Assembly: GCA_011391545.1 (NCBI GenBank)
Contig: JAABQI010000225.1
Coordinates: forward strand, 1-36,384
Reading direction: 5' to 3'
Source: Rhodoferax sp.
Lineage (GTDB): Bacteria > Pseudomonadota > Gammaproteobacteria > Burkholderiales > Burkholderiaceae_C
Length of the DNA stretch: 36,384 nt
The stretch's first letter is position 1. Every line of letters begins with the position of its first letter. Below, piece after piece: positions 1,675 through 13,463 of the stretch. Under the pieces are notes generated by a model. It was not told the DNA's origin. It did no database searches and saw only the letters and a program-made list of their open reading frames with translations. A program made the translations under genes and the position numbers.

Positions 1675-4059
1675 TCAATGCCTTTTAATCCACTCATGAA
1701 TGGCAAAAGAGGCCACGTCCTCGGCATAACTCTTGACGCCAAAACCCGCATCGTAGCCCAGCTCCTTGGCCAGCTCGTGGCTGATGCGCGGCCCGCCCAC
1801 CACCAAAATCACCTTGTCGCGCAGCCCTTCGGCTTCCAGCAGGTCGGCGAGTTTGGTGAGGTTGTCGAGGTGAATGTTCTTTTGCGTCACCACCTGCGAC
1901 ACCAGAATCACGTCGGCCTGCTCTTCAATCGCCCGGGTCACCAGGTCTTCGGAGTCCACCTGCGCGCCGAGGTTGATGGCGCGGATCTCGTGGTAACTCT
2001 CCAGCCCCTTGTGGCCATTAAAACCCTTCATATTCATGATGGCGTCGATGCCCACGGTGTGGGCGTCGGTCTCGATGCAGGCGCCCACCACCACCATGCG
2101 TCGCCCCATCTTTTCAGCGATAAGCGCGTTGATGCCTTCCTTGTCCAGAACCTCGTACTCGGGCTTGACCACTGAGAAACTGTTCAGGTCCACCTGGTGT
2201 TTGCACTGGCCATAGACCACGTAAAAGCTGAAGCCCTGGCCCATGTCCTCGCAGTGCACCACGGCCGGCTCGTCCAGCCCCATTTGCGCGGCCAGACGCT
2301 TGGCGCCCTCCTTGGCGCGCTCGTCCAGCGCCACCGGCAGGGTGAACGAGAGCTGCACGCGCCCGTCGCCAAGCGTGTCGCCGTAGGGCTTGACTGGGTT
2401 ATTGGGGTCAGACACCAATTTCGCTGCGGAGCTTTGCACCGCACCCGAAGGGGCTGCCGGAGGCAGTGCGAATTTGGGCTCTGACCCCAAAAACCCACAA
2501 GCATGGTCGACTCCTTGGGTGGCTGGCAACATGAGGCTGGGGAACGGGTTGAAGTAGTCAGGCGCTTTGGCGATCACACCATCCAGCCCCTTGCCTCCGG
2601 TCGGTGTGCGCGAAATTTCGGCAAACATACCCTTGCCAATGGCGCCTGGCAGGCTGATAGCCTCAATCTCGGCCAGCATGGCCTCCGCTTGTGCCAGCAC
2701 GTCCTGGGCGCGTTGCTCGATCTTTCCGCCGCGCTTGAATTCAATTTCCGAGTGCAAGTCCTTCATGGTGCCAAACACGTACCTCGCGTTCTGGATGGCC
2801 AGAAAGCGGTCCTGGATGAACGGCGTGTGGATGGCCTCGGTCATCATGCCCAGCAGGTGGATATTTTGCTGGGTGACAGTGCTCACGATGTTGAACAGCG
2901 CGTCCTGCACATGGCCCTTGAAAATATTGCCGGTCATGTGTTTGGTGGGCGGCATGTATTTCAGGCAGGCGTCGGGAAAGACCTGGCGCACCAGCTGCGC
3001 ATGGGCCAGTTCCCACAGGAAGCCATTTTCCAGCTCGGGATGAATCTCGAACGCATGGCCCAGGCCCATCTGCTCGGGCTTCAAGCCCGACAACTCGGCG
3101 AACTGTTCGTTGATGAGCTGGGACGCCAGCACCGTGTGCGCGGCCTCATAAGCGTCGGCCGTGGTGAGGTAGTTGTCTTCGCCGGTGTTGATGATGATGC
3201 CGGCATAGGCGTTGACCATGCGCGAGAAAAACTGGTCGATGAAGGTGCGCTTCATGTTGATGTCGCGAAAGATGATGCCGTACATCGAGTCGTTGAGCAT
3301 CATGTCGAGCCGCTCGATGGCGCCCATGGCGGCAATCTCGGGCATACACAGGCCGGAGCAGTAATTGGTCAGGCGGATGTAGCGGCCCACGCGCGTACCG
3401 ACCTCGTCCAGCGCGGCGCGCATCAGGCGAAAGTTTTCCTGCGTGGCATAGGTGCCGCCAAAACCCTCGGTGGTGGCGCCATGGGGCACATAGTCGAGCA
3501 GGCTCTGGCCGGTGGACCGGATCACCGCGATGATGTCTGCCCCCTGCTCGGCGGCGGCACGGGCCTGCACCACGTCCTCATGGATATTGCCGGTGGCCAC
3601 GATAAGGTAGAGCCAGGGGGTTTGGGCCTCGCCGCTGGCGGCAATCTTCTCGGTGCGCTGGGCGCGCTGCGCGGCAATGTGGTCACACATGCTGCGGGCC
3701 TGCGTTTGCGCGGCGGCGCGGGCGGCGGCTTCATCAAGCGGGCGCGTCAGGGTCAGGCTGCCCTTTGACACAGCCTCGGCGACCTGCTGCGCCGTCATGC
3801 CGTGCTGCTGCATGGCACCCGCCAGCACCGTGGCGGCGCCGTGTTGCAGCAGGTTCTGCTCCTGCAAATGGCTCACCACCCGGTTGGGCAGCGGGATGCC
3901 AACCTCGTCGACCCCATCGACCCCCATGAGGCGCAGCGTGGCGCGCTCCACGGTGGTGGTGGTGAAACCCGACATGTCGTCAAAGACCTGCCGCGCAATG
4001 CGCCGCGCCGAGTCGCGGGCGCGGTCGATTTGCGCCTGATCCAGGTTGAGATGGCTCAT
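1675..4059 (-). CDS. kamDE: Lysine 5,6-aminomutase, alpha and beta subunits fused (KamD-KamE)
   Basis: This enzyme is an adenosylcobalamin- and PLP-dependent mutase that moves the terminal amino group of beta-L-lysine (or D-lysine) to give 3,5-diaminohexanoate (or 2,5-diaminohexanoate). In clostridia it is two proteins, KamD (about 516 residues) and KamE (about 262). Here both are in one 794-residue chain. Residues 1 to about 520 are the KamD TIM barrel (TTVERATLRLMG, GATTEGFGGTYATQENFRLM, MPPTKHMTGNIFKGH). Residues from about 553 are KamE, starting at VKPYGDT. The cobalamin-binding D665-x-H667-x-x-G670 motif and the PLP-anchoring lysine (K678 in NMKG, equivalent to K144 of clostridial KamE) are intact. 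The linker, residues about 524-553, is encoded by a palindromic repeat. The start overlaps the kamB-like stop as ATGA, giving tight coupling. Confidence 0.95.
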   Translation of the reverse strand: MSHLNLDQAQIDRARDSARRIARQVFDDMSGFTTTTVERATLRLMGVDGVDEVGIPLPNRVVSHLQEQNLLQHGAATVLAGAMQQHGMTAQQVAEAVSKGSLTLTRPLDEAAARAAAQTQARSMCDHIAAQRAQRTEKIAASGEAQTPWLYLIVATGNIHEDVVQARAAAEQGADIIAVIRSTGQSLLDYVPHGATTEGFGGTYATQENFRLMRAALDEVGTRVGRYIRLTNYCSGLCMPEIAAMGAIERLDMMLNDSMYGIIFRDINMKRTFIDQFFSRMVNAYAGIIINTGEDNYLTTADAYEAAHTVLASQLINEQFAELSGLKPEQMGLGHAFEIHPELENGFLWELAHAQLVRQVFPDACLKYMPPTKHMTGNIFKGHVQDALFNIVSTVTQQNIHLLGMMTEAIHTPFIQDRFLAIQNARYVFGTMKDLHSEIEFKRGGKIEQRAQDVLAQAEAMLAEIEAISLPGAIGKGMFAEISRTPTGGKGLDGVIAKAPDYFNPFPSLMLPATQGVDHACGFLGSEPKFALPPAAPSGAVQSSAAKLVSDPNNPVKPYGDTLGDGRVQLSFTLPVALDERAKEGAKRLAAQMGLDEPAVVHCEDMGQGFSFYVVYGQCKHQVDLNSFSVVKPEYEVLDKEGINALIAEKMGRRMVVVGACIETDAHTVGIDAIMNMKGFNGHKGLESYHEIRAINLGAQVDSEDLVTRAIEEQADVILVSQVVTQKNIHLDNLTKLADLLEAEGLRDKVILVVGGPRISHELAKELGYDAGFGVKSYAEDVASFAIHEWIKRH
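2402..2490. repeat. 89-bp palindromic element inside kamDE, at the subunit seam
   Basis: Outer arms 2402-2424 and 2468-2490 match at 20 of 23 positions and both end in the 11-mer TTGGGGTCAGA. The interior folds into three short hairpins: TGCGG/CCGCA (2425-2443), CCC-GAA-GGG (2444-2452) and CTGCC-GGA-GGCAG (2454-2466). The whole would be a cloverleaf-like structure. It contributes an open frame of about 30 residues, rich in Ala, Pro and Ser, to the KamDE linker. A shorter element with the same ends lies upstream of kdd (6276-6320). The TTGGGGTCAGA end recalls REP-type palindromes associated with RAYT transposases (recollection, not searched). Confidence 0.85.
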
Positions 4060-5216
4060 TCTGTTTCCTTGGTTTGATTCATCCTGGTCTCCAACATCAC
4101 ATCGCTGACGCCATAACCGGCAAAGGCCGCGCGTGCGCTGGCCAAAAACTGGGCGGGGTCAAAACTCCCGCCCAGCGGCGAAAACGGGTTCAGGGTGATG
4201 CCGGTCATGTGAATGCCGCGGTAGGCCATCAGGCGCGCGCCCTGTTTTTCAAACGCGGTCAAGTCGGCCGCTTCGACAAACAGCCGGGTGCCGTCATTCA
4301 CCACCACCCGCAGGCCCGGCTTGTGCCCTGCCAGCGCCGTCAGAGCGCGCCACAGGGAGCGCCCCACGGCGCCGCTGAGCGCCACCGTGGCCACATCGGC
4401 CAGCTGGTGCTGCAGCAAGGTGGCGGCGGCATTGAGCGTCGCGATTTCGGCCAGCATCAGCGGCTGGCCCGCGCTGTTCCAAAGGCCAACGCCGCCCAGC
4501 GCAAAAACAGGCTCGCACAGGCTGCGGGTGGCCTCATCGGCCTGCGGGATACCCAGAATGGCCAGGCGGTCACGCGTCTTGCGGATCACGTCACCCATAC
4601 CGCCGCCGATGGCGGCACCGGTCGCCAGAATCACGCCATTGGCAATGGCCGGCGAGGCATGGTGGCTGCGACCCAGCGCGCCGTCCAGAATCACCAGCGC
4701 GGCGCCACACTGCTTGAGGCGGGCAATCACGGTAAGCTGGTCCGAGCTGCGTGAGGCGCCGGCAATTTCCATCTCGCCGTGCTCCAGCACCTTGACCACC
4801 AGAATCTCACCCATCGGGCTGTCAATGCCGGTGGCGTCGATGTGCTTGTAGCGCACCTTGGCGCGCTCCAGGGTGGACCGTGCCGTGGCCACCAGGTTGC
4901 CGGGCCACACCACAATGGCGGGCTTGGGCACAAAAAACACCGCGTCTCGGTCTTCCCCGTCGCGCCCGATCGACGTGACCCCCAGCGCCACCCCCGACGC
5001 CGCAGCCTGCGCCAGCAAGTGGTTCAGCGCCACGGTTTTCCCGGTGTTCTTGGTCATGCCCATGACGGCCAGCGTGGTCATGCCGCTGGCCTGCATGCGT
5101 TGCCAAAGTGCGCTGGATGAGGTTGTCACTGCGAGCGCAGCGTGGCAGTCCATGCCTTCTGAAGTCATGGATTGTTTCACTTCGTTCGCAATGACAGCGG
5201 GTTGTTGTTCCATCAT
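4056..5216 (-). CDS. kamB: P-loop protein, probable lysine 5,6-aminomutase reactivase subunit KamB
   Basis: A P-loop NTPase-like protein placed between kdd and kamDE, whose start it overlaps (ATGA). It contains GMTKNTGKT, a Walker A-type loop directly after a hydrophobic beta strand (TTLAVM), and later glycine-rich segments (ATGAAIGGGMGD, ALSGAVGRSLWRAL). Clostridial lysine-fermentation clusters carry kamB in this position. KamB with KamC is proposed to reactivate the B12 mutase by exchanging damaged cobalamin. Function is therefore inferred mainly from context and the P-loop. The start is uncertain: the frame is open back to a TTG at 5228, with ATGs at 5216 and 5213, but residues from the 5125-5195 region are encoded by a dispersed repeat, and the next in-frame start after it is ATG 5096, which places the P-loop at residues 13-21. 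None of these starts has a good Shine-Dalgarno. Confidence 0.68.
   Translation of the reverse strand: MMEQQPAVIANEVKQSMTSEGMDCHAALAVTTSSSALWQRMQASGMTTLAVMGMTKNTGKTVALNHLLAQAAASGVALGVTSIGRDGEDRDAVFFVPKPAIVVWPGNLVATARSTLERAKVRYKHIDATGIDSPMGEILVVKVLEHGEMEIAGASRSSDQLTVIARLKQCGAALVILDGALGRSHHASPAIANGVILATGAAIGGGMGDVIRKTRDRLAILGIPQADEATRSLCEPVFALGGVGLWNSAGQPLMLAEIATLNAAATLLQHQLADVATVALSGAVGRSLWRALTALAGHKPGLRVVVNDGTRLFVEAADLTAFEKQGARLMAYRGIHMTGITLNPFSPLGGSFDPAQFLASARAAFAGYGVSDVMLETRMNQTKETE
5125..5195. repeat. 71-bp dispersed palindromic repeat, copy 1 (in the 5' part of kamB)
   Basis: The inverted arms are 5125-5154 and 5166-5195 (30 bases each, starting GTCACTGCGAGCG and ending CGTTCGCAATGAC) around an 11-base centre. 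The same element, the same length and with the same arm layout, occurs at 13393-13463. Read on the minus strand in the kamB frame it encodes VIANEVKQ...MDCHAALAVT, a peptide type often seen when this repeat family is translated by accident. Most arm mismatches between copies are transitions that keep GU or GC pairing. Confidence 0.9.
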
Positions 5217-5229
5217 GTTGGTTTGCAAG

Positions 5230-6267
5230 TCAAACGTAAAGCTTCTCGAACAGTTCGCGCAACTTCGGGCTTTCGCGCAGCAGGTTCAACGCGTAATCGG
5301 CGTGCCCGGTGGCATAACCGTTGCCGACGATCATCTCCACATCCTTGCCCACGCCTTCGGCGCCCAGCGCCGCGGCGGTGAAGCTGGTGGCCATGGAAAA
5401 GAAGTAAATCTTGCCGTGCTGTTTGGTCGCCAGAATGCTGCCCATCTCGGTGTTCTGGATGTTGACGCAGTTGATCACCACGTCGGCCAGCTTGCCATCG
5501 GTCACCTTTGACACAGCGTCCATCAAGGCCAATGCGTCGGTGGCATCCACCTGCAGCGCGTGGTCAACCCAACCCAGATCAAGCATGCGCTGGCAGTCGT
5601 TGGCAAACGGCGACACACCGATGACACAACCGCTCGCGCCGGCGCGCTTTTTGGCCTCATACACACACAGCGTGCCGGACTTGCCACCACCGCCAATCAC
5701 CACCACGGTGTCACCCTCTTTGACCAAGCGAGCCGTCTGGGCAGGGGCACCGGCGACATCCAGAACGGCCAGCGCCAGTTTCTCGTCGAGATCAAAGGGC
5801 AACCTGGCATACAGGCCGGTTTCGAACAGGATGGCGCGACCCTTGATCTCGATCTGATCCTTGGCCATGTGGATCTTGGTGATGCTGTCAATGCGCAGGG
5901 GCGTCAGCGACAGCGACACCAGCGTAGCGATTTTGTCACCCAGCTTCAGGTCGATCTTGCCGAGCAGCGCAGGGCCGATCTCGGCCACGGTGCCAATCAG
6001 CATGCCGCCCGAACCCGTGACCGGGTTGTGGTGCTTGCCGCGCTGGGCCACGATGTCCATGACCATGGCTTCCACCTTGGCCTCATCGCTACCGGTCGCG
6101 CTTTTGATCTGGGTGAAGCTGGCCGAGTCGATGTTGAGTGCCGACACGTCGATCAGGATCTCGTTGTCATAAATTTCCATCGTGTTGTCGAGCTTCCAGG
6201 CGGGCTGGGGCAGCACGCCGAGGGGTTCGAGCACGCGGTGCGTGCCGTAGGGGGAGCCGATATTCAT
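5230..6267 (-). CDS. kdd: L-erythro-3,5-diaminohexanoate dehydrogenase
   Basis: Kdd oxidatively deaminates 3,5-diaminohexanoate to 5-amino-3-oxohexanoate with NAD(P)+, the only redox step of the pathway up to crotonyl-CoA. The 345-residue product starts MNIGSPYGTHRVLEPLG, close to known Kdd N-termini, and the Rossmann glycine motif VVIGGGGKSG lies near residues 185-195. DVSALNIDSASFTQ and GGMLIGTVAEIGP are also characteristic. The frame is open upstream to 6318, but those extra 17 residues are encoded by a hairpin repeat (6276-6320), so ATG 6267 is preferred. No strong Shine-Dalgarno precedes it. It lies between kamA (58-base gap) and the kamB-like gene, whose possible TTG start is one base beyond the kdd stop. 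Confidence 0.92.
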   Translation of the reverse strand: MNIGSPYGTHRVLEPLGVLPQPAWKLDNTMEIYDNEILIDVSALNIDSASFTQIKSATGSDEAKVEAMVMDIVAQRGKHHNPVTGSGGMLIGTVAEIGPALLGKIDLKLGDKIATLVSLSLTPLRIDSITKIHMAKDQIEIKGRAILFETGLYARLPFDLDEKLALAVLDVAGAPAQTARLVKEGDTVVVIGGGGKSGTLCVYEAKKRAGASGCVIGVSPFANDCQRMLDLGWVDHALQVDATDALALMDAVSKVTDGKLADVVINCVNIQNTEMGSILATKQHGKIYFFSMATSFTAAALGAEGVGKDVEMIVGNGYATGHADYALNLLRESPKLRELFEKLYV

Positions 6268-6275
6268 AATATTAG

Positions 6276-6320
6276 TTGGGGTCAGAGCACGTTCGCGGCG
6301 CGAAGTAGTCTGACCCACAA
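6276..6320. repeat. 45-bp hairpin element in the kamA-kdd gap
   Basis: The ends are TTGGGGTCAGA (6276) and its inverted copy TCTGACCCACAA (to 6320, one extra base), and the centre is the perfect palindrome TTCGCG-G-CGCGAA. The element occupies nearly the whole 58-base gap between the kamA stop and the kdd start, so a strong stem-loop would form in the operon transcript. It shares its ends with the 89-bp element in kamDE and looks like a shorter member of the same family. Confidence 0.8.
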
Positions 6321-6325
6321 GTCAT

Positions 6326-7507
6326 TTAGTTACTGGTGGTCGGCAAACTGAAATCTTGCCCCAGACCGGGCATCTCGACCGTTTTTCCGGCGTAGTTGCG
6401 GCACTTCACGGTGGTGCCACTGCCATCGGGCAGGGCCTCTTCGCGCACATAACTCGGGATGATCGGCAGCTTGCCCAAGCCGCCCAGGCCGTCGACGATG
6501 AAGGTGGGCACGGCCGGGCCGCTGATCCAGCCGCGAAGGCCTTCGTAGAGTTCGAGCATGCGACGGTGAGGCACGATGAAATGGTGCGCGCCTTCGACCA
6601 TGTCGGTCGAGTAAACGTAGTAAGGACGCACGCCCATTTCGACCGTTTGCATGAACAATTCGCGCATCACCTCGACGCTGTCGTTGACACCCTTGAGGCA
6701 CACGGTTTGCAGGCCCATCATGATGCCGGCTTTTTGCAGCAACTTGACCCGCGAGCGCAACAGCGGCGTGATTTCCTTGGGGTGGTTGATGTGGATGTTG
6801 ATCATCTGAACACGGTGACGCTCCAGCACCGCGCACAGTTCCGGTGTGACGCGGGTGGGCAGTTGCACCACCATTCGCGAGCCGATGCGCAAGAAACGCA
6901 CATGTGGCGCCCGGCTGCGAATCATGCCCAGAATTTCGTCCAGGCGCTCGTCGGTAAAGGTCAGCGGATCGCCGCCCGACAACAACACGTCGTCAATATT
7001 CTTGTTGTTGGCAATGTAGTCGATCGACGCCTCAATCTCGTCCTTGTGCACCGAGCCCGACGGCTGGCTGACCATGCGCTTGCGGGTGCAGAAGCGGCAC
7101 AGGGTGGCGCAGGTGTTGCTCACCAGAAACAGCACCCGGCGCGGGTAGCGGTGCACGATGCTGGTGCCGGGAATGGTGTCGCCTTCTTCTCCCAACTGGT
7201 CGAGCATGGTGGCAAAACCGGGCTTGGTTTCTTCGTGAAACGACGGCAGGTACTGCATGCGGATCGGGCAATTCGGGTCGTTGCGATCCATCAGCTTGGC
7301 CATATAGGGCGTGATGGCGATGGCGAACTTGTTGTAGACGGTCTCATTCACGTCTTCCACATGGTTCAAGACCCCCTTCAACTGCGCGTGGTGGGTGTAA
7401 CGCCGGGCGAACTGCTTTTGCCAGCTCTCGGACTCCGGGTCGTAGGCTTGCAACTCGTCATAGGTCATGAAAATTTTGGGGGTGGCGAATTCGACGGTTT
7501 GCAGCAT
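6326..7507 (-). CDS. kamA: L-lysine 2,3-aminomutase (radical SAM, PLP)
   Basis: KamA converts L-alpha-lysine to L-beta-lysine using a 5'-deoxyadenosyl radical from SAM, a [4Fe-4S] cluster and PLP. The radical-SAM motif CxxxCxxC is at C133, C137 and C140 (CATLCRFC). LLSGGDPL follows as the SAM-binding GGD-type loop, and the PLP lysine is K346 in GGLGKLPIIP. The 393 residues are close to the roughly 416 of the clostridial enzyme. ATG 7507 is chosen because AGGAG lies six bases upstream; the frame stays open to 7558 without a comparable site. It is the first gene of the operon and diverges from the Lrp-type regulator. With kamDE, kdd, kce and kal nearby the role is lysine catabolism, not synthesis of the osmolyte acetyl-beta-lysine, for which ablB would be expected. 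Confidence 0.95.
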   Translation of the reverse strand: MLQTVEFATPKIFMTYDELQAYDPESESWQKQFARRYTHHAQLKGVLNHVEDVNETVYNKFAIAITPYMAKLMDRNDPNCPIRMQYLPSFHEETKPGFATMLDQLGEEGDTIPGTSIVHRYPRRVLFLVSNTCATLCRFCTRKRMVSQPSGSVHKDEIEASIDYIANNKNIDDVLLSGGDPLTFTDERLDEILGMIRSRAPHVRFLRIGSRMVVQLPTRVTPELCAVLERHRVQMINIHINHPKEITPLLRSRVKLLQKAGIMMGLQTVCLKGVNDSVEVMRELFMQTVEMGVRPYYVYSTDMVEGAHHFIVPHRRMLELYEGLRGWISGPAVPTFIVDGLGGLGKLPIIPSYVREEALPDGSGTTVKCRNYAGKTVEMPGLGQDFSLPTTSN

Positions 7508-7513
7508 GATGTT

Positions 7514-7518
7514 CTCCT
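7514..7518 (-). promoter_or_regulatory. Ribosome binding site deciding the kamA start
   Basis: AGGAG on the minus strand, six bases before ATG 7507, supports this start over the upstream in-frame codon at 7558. Confidence 0.75.
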
Positions 7519-7605
7519 GGGGGTCTTTGCGTTGCTGTGCGGTCTGCACCGTTGCCACAGAAGAATCAAGTTTAGGTAATCACGCCGCCGGTGAAAACAA
7601 GCAAA

Positions 7606-13392: not shown

Positions 13393-13463
13393 GTCATTGC
13401 GAACGCAGTGAAGCAATCCATGACTTCTGCATGCATGGATCGCCACGCTTCGCTCGCGATGAC
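13393..13463. repeat. 71-bp dispersed palindromic repeat, copy 2 (between converging genes)
   Basis: Arms 13393-13422 (GTCATTGCGAACGCAG...) and 13434-13463 (...CGCTCGCGATGAC) form a long stem with an 11-base centre. It is the same element as 5125-5195. Here it fills the 107-base gap between the stop codons of the ABC exporter and glutamate dehydrogenase, where its transcript hairpin could help end or protect both messages. No T-run follows. Confidence 0.9.

Follow-up and report, generated by a model that had tools for sequence, protein, structure and literature searches.

REPs that lie in frame within genes, including those for UvrA, DnaE2 and RNA helicases, have been published (PMC3733652), and several classes of bacterial repeat can be compared with the element described here. 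TIRYT repeats, or TIRtrons (PMC3733652; subclass 2.1 in PMC6006769), have inverted ends that flank a gene for a Y1/HUH tyrosine transposase, and they are dispersed as singles and dimers, as are the ends of our element. Their published end motif is GGGGWSAS (Di Nocera et al. 2013, PMC3733652), which is fitted by the GGGGTCAG found at both ends of our element. The 89-bp form differs in its fixed cloverleaf interior, its covarying hairpins and pairing flanks, and its many coding copies, and the available text of PMC3733652 and PMC6006769 contains no description of the 89-bp sequence or of Rhodoferax.

The Rickettsia palindromic elements (RPEs; PMC10969869, PMC3733652, PMC2229807) are palindromes inserted in frame in unrelated conserved proteins, and a guanylate kinase that bears an RPE is translated and active (PMC2229807). 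Our element works like an RPE, a likeness of in-frame behavior that makes no claim to RPE membership; it differs in that the host belongs to another class, two separate genes are united, and relatives carry a transposase gene flanked by the same ends. Enterobacterial and neisserial MITEs (Delihas 2007, PMC2759123; PMC2229807) also occur in frame with host ORFs, and in one case a MITE removed a stop codon and extended the C-terminus of the protein (PMC2759123, PMC2229807). As described there, MITEs extend one gene or form new small ORFs, whereas here the genes for the two subunits of one enzyme are joined.

REPINs and the associated RAYTs have been published as well (PMC3116915, PMC2817692). 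A REPIN has two inverted terminal units, a variable center, a fold as one hairpin and a link to a Y1 transposase (PMC3116915), all of which recall our element, but REPINs were defined from extragenic space and have high copy numbers, whereas ours has few copies per genome and is often coding. Since the copy at the seam and many of its relatives are coding rather than extragenic, the element is not filed as a REPIN. Among the 13 papers listed for the end motif, none concerns bacterial repeats, judged by title, and no case in which an element of this kind united the genes for two subunits was found in the literature searched, a body that leaves most subscription papers outside its scope. In short, in-frame palindromes in ORFs are known, and what is apparently new is that the genes for two subunits should be fused repeatedly at a single operon border.

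A fused gene for lysine 5,6-aminomutase

The window is the whole 36,384-nucleotide stretch of DNA analyzed, taken from a Rhodoferax sp. assembly (the source genome) that is incomplete and of metagenome type, with 318 contigs and 79% completeness. On its reverse strand, positions 1675 to 4059 form one ORF for 794 amino acids, the stop codon being included in the coordinates. Residues 4-510 (2530-4050) match the lysine 5,6-aminomutase alpha subunit KamD, at 856 bits against a cut-off of 600 for NCBIfam model NF052384, and residues 556-793 (1681-2394) match the beta subunit KamE, at 387 bits against 280 for NF052385; Pfam agrees on both. The ORF is predicted to carry both subunits on one chain, and the fusion recognized in the initial annotation is borne out, given that both models exceed curated cut-offs and no stop codon lies between them.

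Family models place the fused gene in a lysine-fermentation operon, all on the reverse strand. Its neighbors are the 3-keto-5-aminohexanoate cleavage enzyme KCE (298-1119; NF052387), the 3-aminobutyryl-CoA ammonia lyase KAL (1121-1534; NF052388), the KamB reactivase (4056-5228; NF052386), the L-erythro-3,5-diaminohexanoate dehydrogenase KDD (5230-6318; NF052381) and a KamA-family radical SAM protein, probably lysine 2,3-aminomutase, that scores above its subfamily cut-off and below the AblA cut-off (6326-7558). A divergent gene for an Lrp/AsnC-type regulator adjoins the operon; its best regulator model is LysM, below that model's cut-off. Within kamB, a second, unrelated repeat lies in frame at 5125-5195 and encodes part of an N-terminal extension (about residues 12-35); the KamB model begins downstream of it, at residue 53, and an inverted copy of this repeat is found at 13393-13463.

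The seam element and its family

The linker between the two subunits is an 89-bp element at 2402-2490 on the reverse strand, which coincides exactly with codons 524-553, a match that the initial annotation had called almost exact. It reads TTGGGGTC...GACCCCAA, with inverted TTGGGGTCAGA ends around three hairpins. When its pairing flanks are included, the whole imperfect palindrome spans 103 bp (2395-2497). Inverted arms had been noted at the seam and are indeed present, but they had been given as 23 bases, whereas the arms at 2395-2424 and 2468-2497 are 30 nt long and 87% complementary. As single-stranded DNA, the palindrome folds at -38.1 kcal/mol, compared to a mean of -16.6 for 200 shuffles, none of which was as low (z -8.8), and both the single-strand fold and covariation describe the inverted doublet as a hairpin. 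The end motif occurs 43 times in the source genome and once in the reversed control. The source genome also holds a second repeat type with the same end, AATCRG-TTGGGGTCAGAGCACGTCGC...GTGGTCTGACCCGCAA (L016-L045), with several direct pairs about 56-59 nt apart.

A strict pattern for the element finds 35 copies in 18 of the 89 genomes of the genus and none in the reversed control. Thirty copies, comprising 29 of these 35 plus the copy from genome G115, were aligned and fit one cloverleaf, with an outer stem that has fixed mismatches and three hairpins. Standard pairs make up 97.1% of the 1209 cells in this alignment, and double changes are seen at 16 of 42 pairs; shuffles gave 5.2, and none of the 500 came as high. 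Additional pair types number 24 against 19.8, a level that 6 of 500 shuffles reached. Changes affect both sides in 52 cells and a single side in 2, and 35 cells are unpaired; G-U steps are nearly absent, which tends to favor a palindrome in DNA rather than RNA. Covariation extends to the flanks G(A/G)G and C(T/C)C. A covariance model searched at E<=1e-4 matches 49 of the 89 genomes; the E-values are rough, and related families with the same ends are included. An RNA reading was considered and set aside, as no Rfam family reached its gathering score; the four matches listed up to E=1 scored far below theirs.

A probable transposase

Matches to Y1 transposases are present in 79 of the 89 genus genomes. 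One type, of about 232 amino acids, has an HFH motif and a tyrosine within YLLACMAYIDLNP, which we take to be the HUH motif and the catalytic tyrosine. Inverted copies of TTGGGGTCAGATTCCAATTA flank the gene for this protein on both sides at five loci (L238, L241 in G048, L243, L244 and L245). Among the ten loci of this group (L236-L245), the exact core is found on both sides in those five, on one side in two and on neither side in three; among twenty other Y1 matches (L216-L235), one has a single unpaired core and nineteen have none. The gene for the 232-residue type was found in eight of ten genomes of interest and not in the source genome (79% complete) or G041, the two least complete of the ten. 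As judged by sequence, the element and the flanked Y1 gene appear to fit the TIRYT class, and the element may be moved by the HUH tyrosine transposase of its host.

Separate and fused junctions

Matches to kamD and kamE occur in 29 of the 89 genus genomes. Junctions between them were surveyed at 110 loci, 30 from the search of the genus and the best 80 of 593 named-genome relatives. Both halves are present at 108 loci (L073 and L075 lack the KamE half), and removal of nine duplicates left 99 distinct junctions, of which 93 are separate and six are fused. The ends of the element are found at the seam in all six fused junctions, and the element lies in the kamD tail of two of the 93 separate ones (L066, which is genome G013, and L086), such that element and fusion are associated with a Fisher p of 2.5e-8 if relatedness is ignored. 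Five genomes besides the source genome have the fusion with the same type of element: G048, G050, G067, G076 and G115. An even draw of 399 genomes from the family contained the gene in ten, with fusions in the source genome and G115, separate genes by direct reading in seven, one of which (G459, the genome of L086) has the element in its kamD tail, and separate genes in G005. One candidate for a fusion without the element, G367, was dismissed; it shows one long open frame in a search that reads through stops, but on direct reading a stop codon at the junction leaves the genes separate.

The initial annotation had pointed to related kamD and kamE genes for comparison, and in the nearest relatives (G041, G014 and G055, with KamD 93-94% identical) the genes are separate and free of the insert. 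There, kamD ends in CATGCTTGA and kamE starts at the ATG within it, an overlap of 8 nt. In the source genome and in G048, which is 95% identical, the junction reads through CATGYTTG and then enters the element. Relative to G041, 24 nt have been replaced, a stretch that begins with the final base of the kamD stop codon and reaches into the opening codons of kamE, for a net change of +80 nt and the loss of the stop. This change explains how the frame stays open. The initial annotation was right that it does, but had credited the length and reading phase of the element, and 89 is not a multiple of 3; rather, the gap grows from 55 to 135 nt relative to the unfused relative, which also mends the frame offset between the overlapping genes.

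Remnants of the older arrangement are still present on the reverse strand. Residues 512-520, PATQGVDHA (2500-2526), are the ancestral kamD tail, also found in the separate gene of G041. The old kamE start codon (2502-2504) is now out of frame and opens an off-frame ORF of 106 amino acids (2184-2504), and an AAGGAG upstream of it (2511-2516) is, from its sequence, presumably a leftover ribosome-binding site. A second near-empty site is provided by comparison of G337 with G459, which are different species, where about 8 host nt were replaced by insertion in the kamD tail. The loss of host bases counts against a clean insertion. Other repeat-like insertions are found at the unfused junctions L062, L064, L065 and L085, as if the region were a tolerant landing site.

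Both halves of the fused protein are under purifying selection, with dN/dS values between the source genome and G048 of 0.102 (0.10 when rounded) for KamD and 0.018 for KamE. Both values are in line with other pairs in the clade, with 0.018 the lowest of all for KamE; in this DNA comparison the row for the outgroup L065 held KamE only. An AlphaFold2 model (36 rows, mean pLDDT 67.9) gives residues 516-568 a pLDDT under 50, with a linker without structure. KamE is modeled too poorly for the span of the linker to be measured, and a disordered linker is all that the model supports.

Origin of the fusion

We consider it very likely that a mobile palindrome inserted at the 8-nt overlap joined kamD to kamE and was kept by selection as a linker, that related elements did likewise in other lineages, and that an HUH transposase moved them. 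The seam would be a non-autonomous mobile palindrome, with inverted TIRYT-type ends around three small hairpins. As the comparison with the separate genes shows, the kamD frame now runs through the element into kamE, and the old kamE start is left behind, out of frame. As the working kamE start would have been removed, only insertions that joined the frames would have preserved an enzyme, and selection would have kept these. The element would now serve as a flexible linker of about 30 residues, while related elements probably did the same in other lineages and lie in frame in many other proteins; the host transposase, whose same-ended gene is seen in relatives, would have moved the element.

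The number of such events bears on this reading. The fused genes are spread over a protein tree built from 45 loci, with a minimum of six state changes, a count that cannot tell gain of the fusion from loss. AU tests were made on clade groups named after a tree had been seen. A single clade of all fused genes is rejected (p=0.0006), and one origin of all fusions was discarded on that basis; clades of the source genome and G048 with G050 (p=0.00012) or with G115 (p=1.5e-64) are also rejected, and neither G076 with G067 (p=0.097) nor the source genome with G048 (p=0.062) is. The protein tree splits the source genome from G048, nesting the unfused genes of G041 and G055 within the group (bootstrap 93 and 96), and a DNA tree groups the two with a support of only 33, none of the alternatives tested being rejected (AU p 0.18-0.57).

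The borders of the insertions also vary. In the source genome and G048 the old kamD tail is kept, a tail absent from the other fused genes, and the first kamE codons are lost; in G115 the kamD tail is lost and PPEKW before KamE is kept. G076 and G067 have a common right border and different left borders. The junction of fused G050 holds a composite element. In G013, its unfused sister, a related composite lies in the tail of kamD and the start of kamE is undamaged; the two together suggest that insertion came first and the kamE start was lost later. Given the rejection of a single clade and the differing breakpoints, the fusion probably arose about 3-5 times, an estimate that rests on gene trees with recombination.

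Such recombination is the basis for a rather improbable alternative, in which there were only one or very few original fusions, after which recombination carried the junction between lineages, or lineages that are now separate lost it again. Part of kamD in G048 (L047) is 25-29% diverged from the source genome and is probably recombinant, so the junction may have spread in this manner; along the same gene, divergence from the source genome jumps to 19-29% at alignment columns of about 1200-1800. Between these two genomes, 2 of the 89 sites of the element differ, compared to 9-10% in the flanking stretches (binomial 0.007 with an assumed 9.5%), and the element is therefore constrained, recent or exchanged. 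The right border is common to the source genome, G048 and G050, as another is to G076 and G067, which the AU test leaves free to form one clade. Against these points stand the rejected clades listed above and the left borders, which differ among the fused genes, and a reversal to separate genes would need the deleted kamE codons to be restored. Insertion in several lineages is the reading we retain.

The chain itself is probably made as a single polypeptide, KamD-linker-KamE. There is a minor yet real chance that the ORF is fused but two proteins are made, by a KamE start inside the element or by re-initiation: in-frame TTG GTG codons at the 3' end of the element, directly before SDPNNPVKPYG, would give KamE a leader of about native length, but by inspection they lack a good preceding ribosome-binding site and lie within a strong stem, and the old kamE start with its AAGGAG, out of frame, would compete. 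The initial annotation had left it open whether the element created the fusion, by insertion between separate genes, or was tolerated in an existing linker. The second history has in its favor that linkers are permissive sites and that the in-frame copies elsewhere are located within established proteins. However, neither the 99 distinct junctions nor the family genomes read later include a fused gene that lacks the element, and hence none joined by an unrelated linker. The genes of the nearest relatives are separate, and traces of the kamD tail and the old kamE start persist in the source genome. Together, these points make later entry into an ordinary linker very improbable and favor the first of the two histories. 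An assembly error or a decaying gene is barely credible; the source is an incomplete assembly of many contigs, but the same fusion in five other genomes contradicts an error, and dN/dS values of 0.018-0.102 speak against decay.

Gene fusion is usually inferred from the end product alone, whereas here the agent can still be read at the seam, and separate genes, the unfused G013 with a related element in its kamD tail, and several fused products are found side by side. This offers a concrete path by which a bacterial mobile repeat can become a protein linker. It also adds a further bacterial genus to those with in-frame palindromes, one in which a probable transposase can be pointed to. Lysine 5,6-aminomutase, a B12- and PLP-dependent enzyme, is known for a large domain movement, and the fused and separate forms provide a comparative set for the effect of subunit fusion on such an enzyme.

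In-frame copies in other proteins

A broader reading, to which we give slightly less than an even chance, is that the transposase-linked cloverleaf acts across the genus as a recurrent, protein-compatible linker cassette that repeatedly enters conserved proteins in frame, with arms that change together as DNA, and that at one operon border it fused the same two subunits several times independently. If so, nature has run the fusion of the subunits of a B12 enzyme as an experiment with replicates.

To this reading belong the other coding copies. The 97 distinct elements examined were drawn from loci that earlier searches and the end pattern had selected, and proportions among them should not be taken as rates for whole genomes. 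In-frame copies with a family model in the same ORF are found in UvrA (L156, L157, L159 twice, L326 and L327), PurL (L160), a CusA-type pump (L163), an error-prone polymerase (L164), HrpA (L171), AMP nucleosidase (L177), an MmeI-like enzyme (L186), GcvP (L200) and a thioesterase (L270), and at the C-terminus in L287, L294 and L297. Further in-frame copies lie in a radical SAM N-terminal protein (L332), a formyl-transferase/enoyl-CoA hydratase protein (L303) and an E1-beta-like protein, ahead of its domains (L284), as well as in a UvrA-like protein (L184) and a caprolactamase-beta-like protein (L321) whose models score below cut-off. Sequence context alone assigns copies to UvrA (L325), PurL (L165, L167 and L178) and E1-beta (L209). 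Long frames also run over elements without a family match (L205 and L201) or upstream of a domain (L197 and L213), so that an open frame alone proves nothing.

The presence of the element in UvrA or UvrA-like genes of several genomes echoes the published frequency of REPs in repair genes. One site in PurL (L336-L365) varies among genomes, being occupied by one end unit, by a dimer or by a diverged form, and in G048 (L364) the end unit at this site has an unrelated repeat nested within it.
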